From Actinomycetota bacterium (GTDB lineage: Bacteria > Actinomycetota > Geothermincolia > Geothermincolales > RBG-13-55-18): a DNA stretch of 37,707 nt. Where the stretch lies: assembly GCA_013178005.1 (NCBI GenBank), contig JABLXL010000034.1, forward strand, positions 1 through 37,707. Reading direction: 5' to 3'. The stretch's first letter is position 1, and each line of letters opens with the position of its first letter. The translations under genes and the position numbers were made by a program. Of the stretch, positions 31,928 to 37,707 are shown in pieces. Below the pieces are notes generated by a model. It was not told the DNA's origin. It made no database searches and worked only from the letters and a program-made list of their open reading frames with translations.

Positions 31928-32398
31928 TCAGTTCCCTTTCTCCATCGCCTCCACGATCTCGCGGGCGCGGCCTACGAACTCCCCGTCCTCTCCCTGCTCC
32001 TCCAGGATGCGCAGGAAACTCGCGGCGAACTCCAGCATCTCCCCGCGTATCTCCCGCAGTTCCTCGATCCTCTCATCTATTTCCTGGATATGGCGCAGGC
32101 CATATTCCAGGGTGCGCATGATCTGCTGCCTTTGGCTGGGGTCGATCTCGTAAAGCTCCAGTATGTCCTTTAGCTCGGCTAAGGAATACCCGAAGCGCTT
32201 TCCGCGTAGGATGAGCTTGAGGCGCGCCCGGTCGCGTTCGTTGTAGAGCCTCTGGCTGGTCGGGGTGTCGCGGTGCGGGGAGAGCAGGCCTACCTCCTCG
32301 TAGTAACGGATGGTGCGCGGGGTGATCCCGAACTCCGCCGCGAGCTCGGAGATGGTCATCCTGGTGCGCCTTTTCCCGCTTCTTCCCGCTTCGCTCAT
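31928..32398 (-). CDS. MerR-family regulator, LiuR-like
   Basis: A 156-residue regulator with N-terminal winged helix 'MTISELAAEFGITPRTIRYYEEVGLLSP'. 'YNERDRARLKLILRGKRFGYSLAELKDILELYE' is the arrangement typical of LiuR, the MerR-type repressor of branched-chain amino acid and fatty acid catabolism in Proteobacteria. A coiled coil (IQEIDERIEELREIRGEML) serves for dimerisation. Metal-binding Cys residues are absent. The start at ATG 32398 is set by AGGAGG 7 nt upstream; GTG 32401 is closer. It lies between the two acyl-CoA dehydrogenase genes on the same strand and probably controls both, using the operator at 34357-34376. Confidence 0.9.
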   Translation of the reverse strand: MSEAGRSGKRRTRMTISELAAEFGITPRTIRYYEEVGLLSPHRDTPTSQRLYNERDRARLKLILRGKRFGYSLAELKDILELYEIDPSQRQQIMRTLEYGLRHIQEIDERIEELREIRGEMLEFAASFLRILEEQGEDGEFVGRAREIVEAMEKGN

Positions 32399-32595
32399 CA
32401 CCGCGCCTCCTCAGCCGCTCCGTGCTACCGCCTCGACAGGCTGGGCCGCGCCGCTGCGCCGCCCGTCCGGTTCCAAACCAGTCGAATTCTCTTCACGAGA
32501 CGCTCCTTCGCCTCCCCCGGCGACTTCGATCTACCTGCTCGCGTTAATAGTTGCCGGTAAGGGGCCAAGACGCTTCCTTATCTCCCCGGCGACTT

Positions 32596-34236
32596 CTATC
32601 CGTCCCTGGCCAGTTCCCCCACCTTGCTTGGGCTCTCCACCGCCGCGCCTTCAGCCTCAGCCAGCGCCAGGTCTTGGTAAGCGTGAAAAAGGCGGGCGCA
32701 GTAGTCGTCCCAGCGCTCGCAGATCTCGAGCGTCCTCGCGTTCATCTCGAAGAGGTGCGGGATGGCGAGCAGCTCCTCTATCTCCCGGGAAAAGTCCGCG
32801 ACGAGGCCTGGGTCGGCTCCCCGCAGGATGCTGGCCACGCATTCCGGCGCCGGGTACCATTCCGCCACGCGCTGGAAGTCCCGGTGCATCTGGGTGAGAA
32901 GCACATTGCGCGGCCCCTCCCAGAGCTCGTTGACCAGGCCGTCCCGCAGCATGCGCGGGAAGCTGGAAAAGTCCTCCATGACCCCGTGGCCGCCGAAGAC
33001 GCTGATGCCCAGGCGCGACATGTCGTTGGCGTCGGAGGCGGTGGTGATCTTCTGCAGCATCACCAGCTGCCTCACGTCGAAGCGCTTTCTCTTTATCTCC
33101 AGGGGCTCGTCGGTGGTGAGCCCCGGCGCCAGGCCGCCCGGGAGGGCGATGAAATCCCGGTAGAGCTTGAAGCACCCCGCCACGCTGCGCCGCGCCAGGC
33201 GCTCGTGCCTATCCAGTTGCCAGGCCGCCATGGGGAAGGAGGCGATGGGCAGCCCGAAGGCGGTGCGGAATTCGGCGTACTTTCGGCACTCCCGCAAGCC
33301 GCGCAGCAAGCCGCTGCTCATGCCGATGCCCACCACCAGGCGGGAGAGGGTGAGCACGATGCCCACTACGTTGGCCACCCCCCGGTCCAGTGGCCCCACG
33401 GGATAGGCCAGGGCGCCGTCGAAGGTGATCTCGGCGGTGGGGAGTTCCACCGTCCCCAGCTTCCACTTCAGGCGGTCGATGGTGTAGCCGTTGCGCTTTT
33501 CCCTTTCCTTGTCCCCGGGCAGCCACATGGGGACGACGAAGAGGCCTACCCTCTCCGAGCCCTGGGGTTTGGCCGTGACCACTGCATAGTCCGCGTGGGC
33601 TGCGGAGCAGAAGAACTTGTTGCCGTAGAGGCGCCAGTCTCCTTCCTCCTGGACCGCCTCCAGGAGGTTGGCGGGTACGTCCGAGCCCCCCTGTATCTCG
33701 GAGACGAACTGGGATCCGATGGCGAAATCGCCGTCGATGCCGTCCCTGGCGTGCTCGAGGATGCGCAGGGTCTCCGGGGTATCCGCGTACTTCTCCAGCA
33801 GCGCCACCAGACCCCAGGTGCAGGCCACGGGGCAGAGGACGCCGGCCTCGGAGTTCTGGCTCAGGATGGCGATCTTGATCAAGCGGGTCCAGGGCGAGGT
33901 GCGGGGGGAGAAAAGGGCTTCGGAGAAGACTTCCTTCTCCATGACCTCGATCTCGTATGGCCTGACGATGCGGTCGATGCGGTTCTTGTGGCCGTCGTAG
34001 TGCATCATGTAGGGGCGCTTCTCCGGCGTGGAGATGCGCTCCGCGAAGTCCCGCCAGCGGAAGGAGGCCTTCTTCGAGAACGCCCTCGCCTCGCGGTCCA
34101 CCTCCTCCGCCTCCTCGCCCGCGAAGGCGCGCACCATCCCCTGGAGGAAGGGGTCATCGGCGTAGTAATCGACCTTGCTGCGCCACTCCAGGTAGGGGTT
34201 GAAAGTGTAGGGATTGTTCCTGTCCGGAAGGGACAT
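32596..34236 (-). CDS. AidB-like acyl-CoA dehydrogenase
   Basis: A 546-residue protein close to E. coli AidB in length (about 541) and layout. It has an N-terminal extension 'NNPYTFNPYLEWRSKVDYY', acyl-CoA dehydrogenase middle and C-terminal domains ('FAIGSQFVSEIQGGSDVPANLLEA', 'FGGHGVMEDFSSFPRMLRDGLVNELWEGPRNVLL'), and a helical tail. The Glu of 'LWEGPRN' aligns with the catalytic Glu. AidB itself binds DNA and has weak isovaleryl-CoA dehydrogenase activity. The linked LiuR-like regulator favours a metabolic role here, perhaps on branched or bulky acyl-CoAs. GAAGGAGG precedes the ATG. A strong promoter with an embedded operator lies about 115 nt upstream. Confidence 0.92.
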   Translation of the reverse strand: MSLPDRNNPYTFNPYLEWRSKVDYYADDPFLQGMVRAFAGEEAEEVDREARAFSKKASFRWRDFAERISTPEKRPYMMHYDGHKNRIDRIVRPYEIEVMEKEVFSEALFSPRTSPWTRLIKIAILSQNSEAGVLCPVACTWGLVALLEKYADTPETLRILEHARDGIDGDFAIGSQFVSEIQGGSDVPANLLEAVQEEGDWRLYGNKFFCSAAHADYAVVTAKPQGSERVGLFVVPMWLPGDKEREKRNGYTIDRLKWKLGTVELPTAEITFDGALAYPVGPLDRGVANVVGIVLTLSRLVVGIGMSSGLLRGLRECRKYAEFRTAFGLPIASFPMAAWQLDRHERLARRSVAGCFKLYRDFIALPGGLAPGLTTDEPLEIKRKRFDVRQLVMLQKITTASDANDMSRLGISVFGGHGVMEDFSSFPRMLRDGLVNELWEGPRNVLLTQMHRDFQRVAEWYPAPECVASILRGADPGLVADFSREIEELLAIPHLFEMNARTLEICERWDDYCARLFHAYQDLALAEAEGAAVESPSKVGELARDG

Positions 34237-34354
34237 GACACACCTCCTTCGCCCGCCGCCATCGCCTTTCGCGATCGCGACACCGCAGGCCGCTCTTGGA
34301 ATCCGGCCTCAATCGAGCCCGCAAATCCGGATAGCCTTGACGACTGCCCCAACA

Positions 34355-34384
34355 ATTTAACGTTTACGTTAACGTTATTGTCAA
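34355..34384 (-). promoter_or_regulatory. Promoter with embedded ACGTT-repeat operator for the AidB-like gene
   Basis: On the minus strand, TTGACA (34384-34379) and TTAAAT (34360-34355) are separated by 18 nt. The spacer contains the perfect palindrome ACGTTAACGT (34366-34375) within three tandem hexamers of (T/A)ACGTT type at 34359-34376. This places a repressor or MerR-type activator site exactly between -35 and -10. The likely protein is the LiuR-like MerR regulator downstream. Confidence 0.75.
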
Positions 34385-34408
34385 TATGATAATATCTGCC
34401 TCTTCCGC

Positions 34409-35007
34409 CTGTCAACAAGATGGCCGCGCCTTGAGGTCCCCTTTCGCGCGCCCTATGCATGCTTCCGCCTGAGTTGACGCCATGCGGTTTGGCTTTTCAC
34501 GCTCCCTGTCAACAAGATGGCCGCGCCTTGAGGTCCCCTTTCGCGCGCCCTATGCATGCTTCCGCCTGAGTTGACGCCATGCGGTTCGATTGTTCACGTA
34601 CACAAGGCCGGTGGCCGGCTTTGGCAGGATAATGCGCGCCTCGGTCCGAAACCCGGGCCTGGCACCCTAGCCTCAGGCCGATGGCCAGCCCTGACCCCTA
34701 GGCCTACGCCTGAGTTGACGCCATGCGGTTTGGCTTTTCACGCTCCCTGTCAACAAGATGGCCGCGCCTTGAGGTCCCTTTTCGCGCGCCCTATGCATGC
34801 TTCCGCCTGAGTTGACGCCATGCGGTTCGATTGTTCACGTACATAAGGCCGGTAGCCGGCTTTTGCAGGATAATGCGCGCCTCGGTCCGAAACCCGGGCC
34901 TGGCACCCTGGCCTCAGGCCGATGGCCAGCCCTGACCCCTAGGCCTAACCCGAGATCCGGGCCTGGCACCCTGGCCTCAGGCCGATGGCCAGCCCTGACC
35001 CCTAGGC
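34409..35007. repeat. 241-bp tandem repeat array (about 2.4 units)
   Basis: 34471-34711 and 34712-34952 are near-identical (a few substitutions, such as ACACAAGG versus ACATAAGG). A partial unit precedes them from 34409 (CCTGTCAACAAGATGGCC...), and a third copy of the last 50 nt follows at 34958-35007. Inside each unit GAGTTGACGCCATGCGGTT occurs twice, so the array is nested. The final copy includes the TAG stop of the FGGY kinase gene. No coding sequence is credible here, although the repeat opens chance frames on both strands. Confidence 0.9.
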
Positions 35008-36567
35008 CCAGTGGGAGGCGCGCTGCACCGCTTTCTTCCAGCCGGCGTAGAGCCTCTCGCGCATCTCCGCCTCCATGGCGGGCTTGAAGACGCGGTCCAC
35101 GCCGCGTATGCGCAGGATATCGTCGGGGTATTTCCATATCCCCGCCGCGATGCCGGTGAAGAAGGCGGCGCCCAGGGCGGTGGCCTCGAGCACCCGCGGG
35201 CGTTCCACCTCGGCGTCAAGGATGTCCGCCAGGAACTGCAGGAGGAAATCGTTGGCAGACGCACCCCCATCCGCCCTGATCTTCTTTGCCTCCATGCCGG
35301 TGTCCTTCTGCATGGCCTCGATGACGTCCCTGCACTGGTAGGCGATGGACTCCAGGGTCGCCCTCACCACCTGTTCCTTGGTGGTGGCGCGGGTGAGGCC
35401 GATGACGGTTCCGCGGGCATAGGGATCCCAGTAAGGCGCGGTGAGCCCGGTGAAGGCGGGGACGACGTAGACGCCCCCGCAGTCCTCGCAGGCCTGCGCC
35501 AGGTCCTGCGACTCCGCGGCGTCCTTGATTATCTTCAGGTTGTCCCTGAGCCACTGCACCGAGGAGCCGGCGCTGGAGATGATGCCCTCCATCATGTAGG
35601 TGGTCTCGCCGCCCATCTTCCAGGCGATAAGCGGGGTCAGCTTGTACACGGAGGCCATGGGCGCGTCGCCGGTGTTCATGTCGATGAAGGTGCCGGTGCC
35701 GTTGGTGCACTTAACGCTGCCCTTCTCGAAGCAAGCCTCGCCGAAGAGGGCGGCTTGCTGGTCGGCGACCACGCACCTGATGGGGATGGGGTCGCCGAAG
35801 GCCTCGGTGACGCCGAAGTCGCCGGCGGTCTCCCGGATCTCCGGGAAGACCAGCCCCCCGGGGAGACCGAAGGGCTTGAGCAGGAGGGGGCTCCAGCGCA
35901 TGCCGAAGGGGTCGTACATCCCGGTGGCGCTGACGTTGGAGAAGTCGGTGGCGTGCACCGCGCCGCGGGTGTAGTTCCACACCAGCCAGGTATCCACGGT
36001 ACCCAGGAGCAGCTTCCCCGCTTTCGCCTTCTCCGCCGCCCCCGGCACGTTGTCCAGCACCCAGCGCGCGTGGGCGGAGGACTGGGCGGGGGTCACGGTG
36101 AAATGGGCGGCGGTGATGAGCAGTTTCCCCACCAGGTTGCGGCGCAGCCCCTCGCTCAGCGGCGCGATGCGCTGGTACGCGCCGCCCAGGATGTGGAGCA
36201 GCCTGAACATGGCGCTGCGGTTGATCCTCTCGCAGGTGTCGGACATCCTGGTGTCCTGCCAGGTGATGGCGTTGTAGACCGGGTTCCCCGTCTCGGCATC
36301 CCAGATCATGCTGGTCGCCCTCTGGGTGGCGATGCCCATGGCCGCGATCTCCGCCGCCTTGATCCCCGACTCCTCAAGGACCCTTCTGGTCACCTCCACG
36401 CAGCTCTCGAAGAGGACGGACGGGTCCTGCTCCGTCCACCCGGGCTGCGGGAATATCTGCGGTATCTCGCGGTATACCTCGCGCACCACGTTGGTCTCGT
36501 GGTCGAAGATGACCGCCCTTACCCCGGTGGTGCCCACGTCGTTTACCAGGATGTATTTTTCTTCCAT
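35002..36567 (-). CDS. FGGY-family kinase, glycerol kinase-like
   Basis: A 521-residue two-domain sugar/polyol kinase. 'LVNDVGTTGVRAVIFD' is the N-terminal phosphate loop. 'YNAITWQDTR', 'DNVPGAAEKAKAGKLLLGTVDTWLVWNYT' and 'VADQQAALFGEACFEKGSVKCTNGTGTF' follow glycerol kinase closely, and 'GLTAPYWDPYARG' and 'LESIAYQCRDVIEAM' complete the FGGY signature. The glycerol-contact segment NQRET of GlpK is TQRAT here, so the contact Glu is Ala, and the PYFSGTK segment is PAQSSAH, losing the contact Tyr. The catalytic Asp of 'ADQQ' remains. Another polyol or a modified glycerol may be the substrate. The start has GAGGGCG upstream and a TATAAT about 50 nt away. The gene's 3' end falls inside the tandem repeat. 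Confidence 0.9.
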   Translation of the reverse strand: MEEKYILVNDVGTTGVRAVIFDHETNVVREVYREIPQIFPQPGWTEQDPSVLFESCVEVTRRVLEESGIKAAEIAAMGIATQRATSMIWDAETGNPVYNAITWQDTRMSDTCERINRSAMFRLLHILGGAYQRIAPLSEGLRRNLVGKLLITAAHFTVTPAQSSAHARWVLDNVPGAAEKAKAGKLLLGTVDTWLVWNYTRGAVHATDFSNVSATGMYDPFGMRWSPLLLKPFGLPGGLVFPEIRETAGDFGVTEAFGDPIPIRCVVADQQAALFGEACFEKGSVKCTNGTGTFIDMNTGDAPMASVYKLTPLIAWKMGGETTYMMEGIISSAGSSVQWLRDNLKIIKDAAESQDLAQACEDCGGVYVVPAFTGLTAPYWDPYARGTVIGLTRATTKEQVVRATLESIAYQCRDVIEAMQKDTGMEAKKIRADGGASANDFLLQFLADILDAEVERPRVLEATALGAAFFTGIAAGIWKYPDDILRIRGVDRVFKPAMEAEMRERLYAGWKKAVQRASHWA

Positions 36568-36736: not shown

Positions 36737-37707
36737 TCAAGGCGCATAGCCGATGGAGTCGTGGGCCCATGTCCTCCCTCCCCCGTACACCGCGCGCTCG
36801 CAGACCACGGGCCGGTCGGAGGTTATGGCGGTGGAGACGTCCCAGGAGGTGACGTACCTGCCCACGTTGTAGGTGCGGCGGGAGCGGGCGGGAACGGTCT
36901 CCCGGGGGCCTTCCACCGGGCCCTCGGAGGTCTGGAAGTCCATGGCAACGGAGGCGGGCTGGTCCCCGGGGTTCTGCACCAGCACCCAGGTCTCGAAGTC
37001 ACCTTCCGTGCAGCCCTCGGCCAGGTACCAGGTGGCGGAGGGGGCGGTGACCCCGATGGAGTCGTGGGCCCACGTCCTCCCTCCCCCGTACACCGCGCGC
37101 TCGCAGACCACGGGCCGGTCGGAGGTGACGGCGGTGGAGACGTCCCAGGAGGTGACGTACCTGCCCAGGTTGTAGGTGCGGCGGGAGCGGGCGGGAACGG
37201 TCTCCCGGGGGCCTTCCACCGGGCCCTCGGAGGTCTGGAAATCGATGGCAACGGCGGCGGGCTCGTCCCCGGGGTTCTGCACCAGCACCCAGGTCTCGAA
37301 GTCACCTTCCGTGCAGCCCTCGGCCAGGTACCAGGTGGCGGAGGGGGCGGGACCGGAGACCGTGAAGGCGAGGGCGTTGGAGGTGCCCCCGTCGGTGGTG
37401 ACGGTCACCTCCACTACTCCCGAGACGCCGGGAGGGACGTAACAGGAAACCGAGGTGTCGCTCCAGGAATCGTAGAGGACAGCCTCCACCCCGCCGAAGG
37501 AGACGGCGGAGCCGCCCCGCGAGGGACCGAAGGCCTTGCCCACCAAGGTGACTTTATCGCCCACCCCACCCCGCGAGGGGGAGAGGGAGGTGAGATTGGG
37601 AACGACGCGGAAGGCGAGGGCGTTGGAGGTGCCCCCGTCGGTGGTGACGGTCACCTCCACTACTCCCGAGACGCCGGGGGGGACGTAACAGGAAACCGAG
37701 GTGTCGC
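36737..37707 (-). CDS. Secreted TIG/YLAEG repeat protein (5' end off window)
   Basis: The frame is open through the right edge and ends at a TAG at 36737, so only the C-terminal 320 or so residues are visible. They show the end of one TIG/IPT domain, a complete second TIG domain ('LTSLSPSRGGVGDKVTLVGKAFG', 'SVSCYVPPGVSGVVEVTV'), then two YLAEG domains of 101 residues each ('ATWYLAEGCTEGDFETWVLVQNPGD', 'YNLGRYVTSWDVST', 'VVCERAVYGGGRTWAHDSIG'). The two YLAEG domains are nearly identical in DNA (36752-37054 and 37055-37357, period 303 bp). TIG domains are immunoglobulin-like, common in surface adhesins and glycan-binding proteins. It belongs to the same exported family as the protein at 1-2029. 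Confidence 0.9.
   Translation of the reverse strand, partial: DTSVSCYVPPGVSGVVEVTVTTDGGTSNALAFRVVPNLTSLSPSRGGVGDKVTLVGKAFGPSRGGSAVSFGGVEAVLYDSWSDTSVSCYVPPGVSGVVEVTVTTDGGTSNALAFTVSGPAPSATWYLAEGCTEGDFETWVLVQNPGDEPAAVAIDFQTSEGPVEGPRETVPARSRRTYNLGRYVTSWDVSTAVTSDRPVVCERAVYGGGRTWAHDSIGVTAPSATWYLAEGCTEGDFETWVLVQNPGDQPASVAMDFQTSEGPVEGPRETVPARSRRTYNVGRYVTSWDVSTAITSDRPVVCERAVYGGGRTWAHDSIGYAP

Follow-up and report, generated by a model that had tools for sequence, protein, structure and literature searches.

MerR proteins are frequently activators, and activators of this family have their operators within promoter spacers of 19–20 bp. For metal-sensing members, Korostelev et al. reported transcription factor position 14 and operator positions 6/13 as the top correlated pair; the residue is E in MerR, K in CueR and D in the ZntR-like group, and the residue-base pairs are C-K, T-E, G-D and A-A (PMC5045206). 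LiuR, a proteobacterial regulator of branched-chain amino acid and acyl-CoA catabolism, has been described as a repressor (PMC3223726). Here, we describe a LiuR-like MerR regulator encoded in a stretch of 37,707 nucleotides (the window) from an Actinomycetota bacterium. From our sequence comparisons, we consider it probable (roughly 0.8) that this protein represses its own operon as a dimer, which would bind ACGTTAACGT at the transcription start and read the base pair at palindrome position ±4 through Arg28.

The operon runs from an AidB-like dehydrogenase gene through merR to a second acyl-CoA dehydrogenase gene, with the operator upstream (Table 1); that merR follows the AidB-like gene in the same direction had been read correctly from the sequence alone. 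Beyond the second dehydrogenase lie a convergent pair of TetR genes and a glyoxalase/epimerase-like gene, and the upstream neighbour is a glycerol-kinase-like gene (Pfam, NCBIfam). The regulator contains an N-terminal winged helix-turn-helix (PF13411/PF00376) and PF09278, above the Pfam cut-offs, and its structural model (mean pLDDT 84) matches the folds of CueR and MtaN. It resembles the metal sensors CueR, ZntR and MerR in fold and in the recognition-helix position that reads base ±4 (PMC5045206), but lacks their cysteine ligands, and its operator lies outside any 19–20-bp spacer. All NCBIfam scores for CueR, ZntR and CadR were far under their cut-offs, and a metal-sensor identity was rejected because none of the 156 residues is a cysteine.

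Table 1. Features of the acyl-CoA dehydrogenase–merR operon and its upstream region in the window
Feature	Position	Strand	Remarks
Operator, near-perfect 20-bp palindrome TAACGTTAACGTAAACGTTA (operon strand)	34358..34377	-	Core ACGTTAACGT
Likely -35, TTGACA	34410..34415	-	Position conserved in family relatives
Likely -10, TATCAT	34386..34391	-	18 bp from -35; operator starts directly downstream
Promoter of the sequence-only reading, TTGACA-18-TTAAAT	34355..34384	-	Present, not conserved in relatives
AidB-like acyl-CoA dehydrogenase, 546 aa	32596..34236	-	Pfam Acyl-CoA_dh_1, Acyl-CoA_dh_M, AidB_N
LiuR-like MerR regulator, 156 aa	31928..32398	-	Pfam MerR_1, MerR, MerR-DNA-bind
Arg28 codon, recognition helix of MerR	32315..32317	-	Residue covarying with operator base pair ±4
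Second acyl-CoA dehydrogenase, 411 aa	30569..31804	-	Pfam/NCBIfam

The operator reads TAACGTTTACGTTAACGTTA on the plus strand and contains three ACGT half-sites with a period of 6 bp. Since it is retained in all congeneric genomes and also further out, it is not a product of chance, and the palindrome is confirmed as genuine. Orthologues of merR (58–88% identity) occur across the genus, the family, the order and part of the class, with weaker homologues at the level of the phylum; AidB-like orthologues within the family are 78–92% identical. Three genomes of the same genus or close to it (G001, G002 and G012) have the exact operator 130–147 bp ahead of the AidB-like start. In relatives with swapped gene order, where merR comes first, the site is still found at the front of the operon: the order is operator, merR, AidB-like gene in G019, in Rubrobacter radiotolerans (G080, identical in sequence to plasmid record L084) and in G091, and the site immediately precedes merR in G003 and in a second copy in G013 (G013:C13). 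R. radiotolerans (RRADSPS_RS14530-14525) and Cytobacillus spongiae share with the window the merR and AidB-like pair, the operator lying immediately upstream of merR, but differ in that their AidB-like enzyme is only 26–36% identical and the annotated neighbourhood shows no second dehydrogenase. The R. radiotolerans homologue offers a testable putative repressor in a named bacterium. In the window's family, both operator types described below retain the three half-sites with their 6-bp period (34358-34377 in the window).

The likeness to LiuR consists of about 50% identity over the DNA-binding half, an RLKLILRGKR linker, an ACGT-core operator, an acyl-CoA dehydrogenase target and a putative repressor role. 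Over 117 residues, the window protein shares 50% identity with the MerR of Vibrio nereis (L135), which heads a liu-type operon of acyl-CoA dehydrogenase, carboxyltransferase and hydratase genes; in L135 and L155, merR stands first in an operon that combines acyl-CoA dehydrogenase and carboxyltransferase genes with those for a hydratase or thiolase. In this analysis, we took the LiuR motif from such liu-type operons, and the window site shares the core of the L135 and L155 sites. If the protein were a true LiuR orthologue in control of a regulon for branched-chain amino acid catabolism in the window lineage, this common core and identity would be accounted for, but we regard this as quite improbable: the window MerR belongs to a separate clade (union of the window class with L135, L155 and L173 rejected, p-AU 1e-4, the groups in our AU tests having been chosen after a quick tree was seen), it has a single target operon, and its neighbours are two dehydrogenases rather than the liu carboxyltransferase and hydratase genes. 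The designation as LiuR-like therefore holds for identity, linker and ACGT-core sites, but not for clade membership.

The sequence-only reading had also envisaged an extension of the LiuR regulon logic to this lineage, with similar sites upstream of other acyl-CoA genes. A pattern search of the 3.6-Mb genome (3,611,910 bases) yielded no credible second operator: the 20-mer TAACGTTWACGTWAACGTTA has one match even when up to three mismatches are allowed, and the 18-mer form has two more matches, each with two mismatches and within coding sequence. Secondary sites with one or two mismatches in G000, G001, G012, G013, G014 and G019 lie nearly all inside coding sequence, in genes that are, from their translations, hisF-like, proA-like, guaB-like and others; the AAGTT-type genomes have at most one site each. 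We therefore rejected a genome-wide regulon, and the site probably serves a local, self-regulated operon. One perfect site away from merR was found, upstream of a LacI-family gene in G041 (L070 7926-7943); the sequence ahead of this gene, GTAAACGTTTACGTAAACGTTTAC, is a look-alike that belongs to another regulator family.

The promoter proposed earlier is present as described: on the minus strand, TTGACA (34384-34379) is followed by the 18-base spacer ATAACGTTAACGTAAACG, which contains ACGTTAACGT, and by TTAAAT (34360-34355). With both hexamers in place and the palindrome between them, classical MerR activation could be envisaged, in which the ligand-bound protein would untwist an over-long spacer, as relatives in the PDB such as CueR do. 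When the upstream regions of operator-bearing family and class relatives were aligned on the operator, however, the operator-abutting TTGACA was found in the window only and was absent from G001, G002 and G012, three genomes with intact operators. Instead, the relatives share TTGAC[ACGT] and a -10-like hexamer, 16–18 bp apart and both 5' of the operator. The conserved promoter thus lies about 30 bp upstream of the one first proposed, which places the operator just downstream of its -10, in a repressor geometry. The operators of Rubrobacter, G091 and G088 occupy the whole of a spacer of 17 bp, not 19–20 bp, between TTGACG and a -10-like hexamer, and no elongated conserved spacer around the operator was found in the window's family or in the Rubrobacter-type genomes. 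Both layouts suggest repression rather than untwisting of the MerR type, which we consider unlikely, although MerR may activate from a downstream site.

In the repression that we favour, a MerR dimer would bind ACGTTAACGT ahead of the operon, where in the window's family it would overlap the transcription start just downstream of the TTGACA/-10 promoter; bound in this position, it would block RNA polymerase. A pathway acyl-CoA would then release MerR from the operator, by analogy with LiuR.

Scanning genome contigs with the MerR alignment yielded 581 encoding stretches, the best 80 of which belong to Bacillota, Alpha- and Gammaproteobacteria, Desulfobacterota, Actinomycetota and one Archaeoglobus metagenome-assembled genome (MAG). 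Sites precede merR homologues in all of these groups. The core used for counting, TNAxGTWWACyTNA, leaves the base at ±4 free; exact matches were present in 62 of the 128 regions examined upstream of merR, against 0.20 expected from dinucleotide shuffles, and matches with at most one mismatch in 89 of 128 (3.9 expected). Upstream regions without the site include L105, L107, L110, L117, L121, L122 and L127. A Desulfobacterota group with Arg28 (STRAIRFY/STRTIRFY; L105, L107, L110, L117, L132, L134 and L136) has no recognisable site upstream of merR. The idea that this site logic reaches beyond Proteobacteria is borne out for the window lineage, but it extends also to Bacillota, Desulfobacterota, Rubrobacter and the Archaeoglobus MAG. 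Within the window MerR's own clade, the most widely conserved partner is the second dehydrogenase (about 49–64% identity in Bacillota, Archaeoglobus and Desulfobacterota), not the AidB-like one. In the Archaeoglobus MAG JdFR-37 (L093 4455-4500), a merR–dehydrogenase pair has GTTAACGTTTACGTAAACGTTAA abutting the start codon; this occurrence may reflect transfer or a binning error.

The base pair left free in the core follows the residue at position 28. Arg28 accompanies ACGTTAACGT, and Ser, His or Pro at this position accompanies AAGTTAACTT. Among symmetric cores, Arg28 occurred with C/G in 71 cases and with A/T in none, whereas Ser, His or Pro occurred with A/T in 12 and with C/G in none (Fisher p = 1e-14, relatedness ignored); this count left out 10 asymmetric cores (R with A/G, C/T or T/G; S with C/T or A/C). 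Residue 28 and operator type were concordant in 93 of 93 rows. Three genera of the window's family (g3-g5) have AAAGTTAAAGTTAACTTT or a near form as operator in the same place, and their recognition helix has I-A-P-S in place of I-T-P-R. Within Desulfobacterota, too, there are proteins in which residue 28 has become Ser, His or Pro and whose operators are of the AAGTTAACTT type. In a tree built without residues 26–28, residue and operator changed four times each, and the hypothesis that the non-Arg state arose just once was rejected (p-AU 4.1e-6). Because there are only 2–4 independent switches among related sequences, these formal statistics are of limited weight. Across about 110 columns, residue 28 alone tells the operator types apart in each of the two lineages; T26 was rejected as a shared determinant, since it changes to A in Actinomycetota and is unchanged in Desulfobacterota.

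In the model of the window MerR, Arg28 lies within helix 27–35 and aligns with the CueR lysine. Close to the N-terminal end of the recognition helix, it would read the C:G pair at ±4, presumably by direct contact with the G, and its replacement by Ser, His or Pro would shift the operator to AAGTTAACTT. Residue 28 and base ±4 align with the pair of Korostelev et al., so the principle is already known from metal sensors (PMC5045206). What is new, as far as our literature search shows, are the pairs C-R, A-S and A-H, in place of C-K, T-E and G-D, and the repeated switch inside one acyl-CoA-linked subfamily, on whose operator switch the search found no paper. G013, G098, G105, G106, G109, G110 and G119 each encode two paralogues, only one of which has Arg28, and wherever a site is found its type matches residue 28. 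We are fairly confident that Arg28 versus Ser, His or Pro sets ACGTTAACGT versus AAGTTAACTT in these widespread regulators, that the switch had two or more origins, and that it separates the operators of paralogues in G013 and several Desulfobacterota. The paralogues are apparently insulated from one another by operator type. The subfamily thus represents a natural experiment in the joint change of transcription factor and operator, in which one amino acid and one symmetric base pair switch repeatedly across distant lineages. It extends the residue-base code of metal-sensing MerR proteins to acyl-CoA-linked regulators and provides a simple, testable case of switching in a protein-DNA recognition code.

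This covariation also bears on ownership of the site. Two TetR genes adjoin the operon and the LacI-type gene of G041 carries the look-alike AACGTTTACGTAAACGTT, so another regulator, such as a TetR or LacI protein, might own a site that lies near merR by coincidence. We consider this highly improbable, as the operator bases change with a residue of the MerR recognition helix, and as the site accompanies merR in Rubrobacter, G019, Bacillota and Proteobacteria, where the window's TetR pair is lacking.

Elsewhere in the window, the interval from the operon promoter to the glycerol-kinase-like gene contains near-identical direct repeats (34408-35008), with a 241-bp unit present twice at 97% and a 94-bp unit three times. 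A coding tandem repeat of 303 bp (36750-37354; two copies, 97%) falls in a protein with ATWYLAEGCTEGDFETWVLVQNPG repeats.
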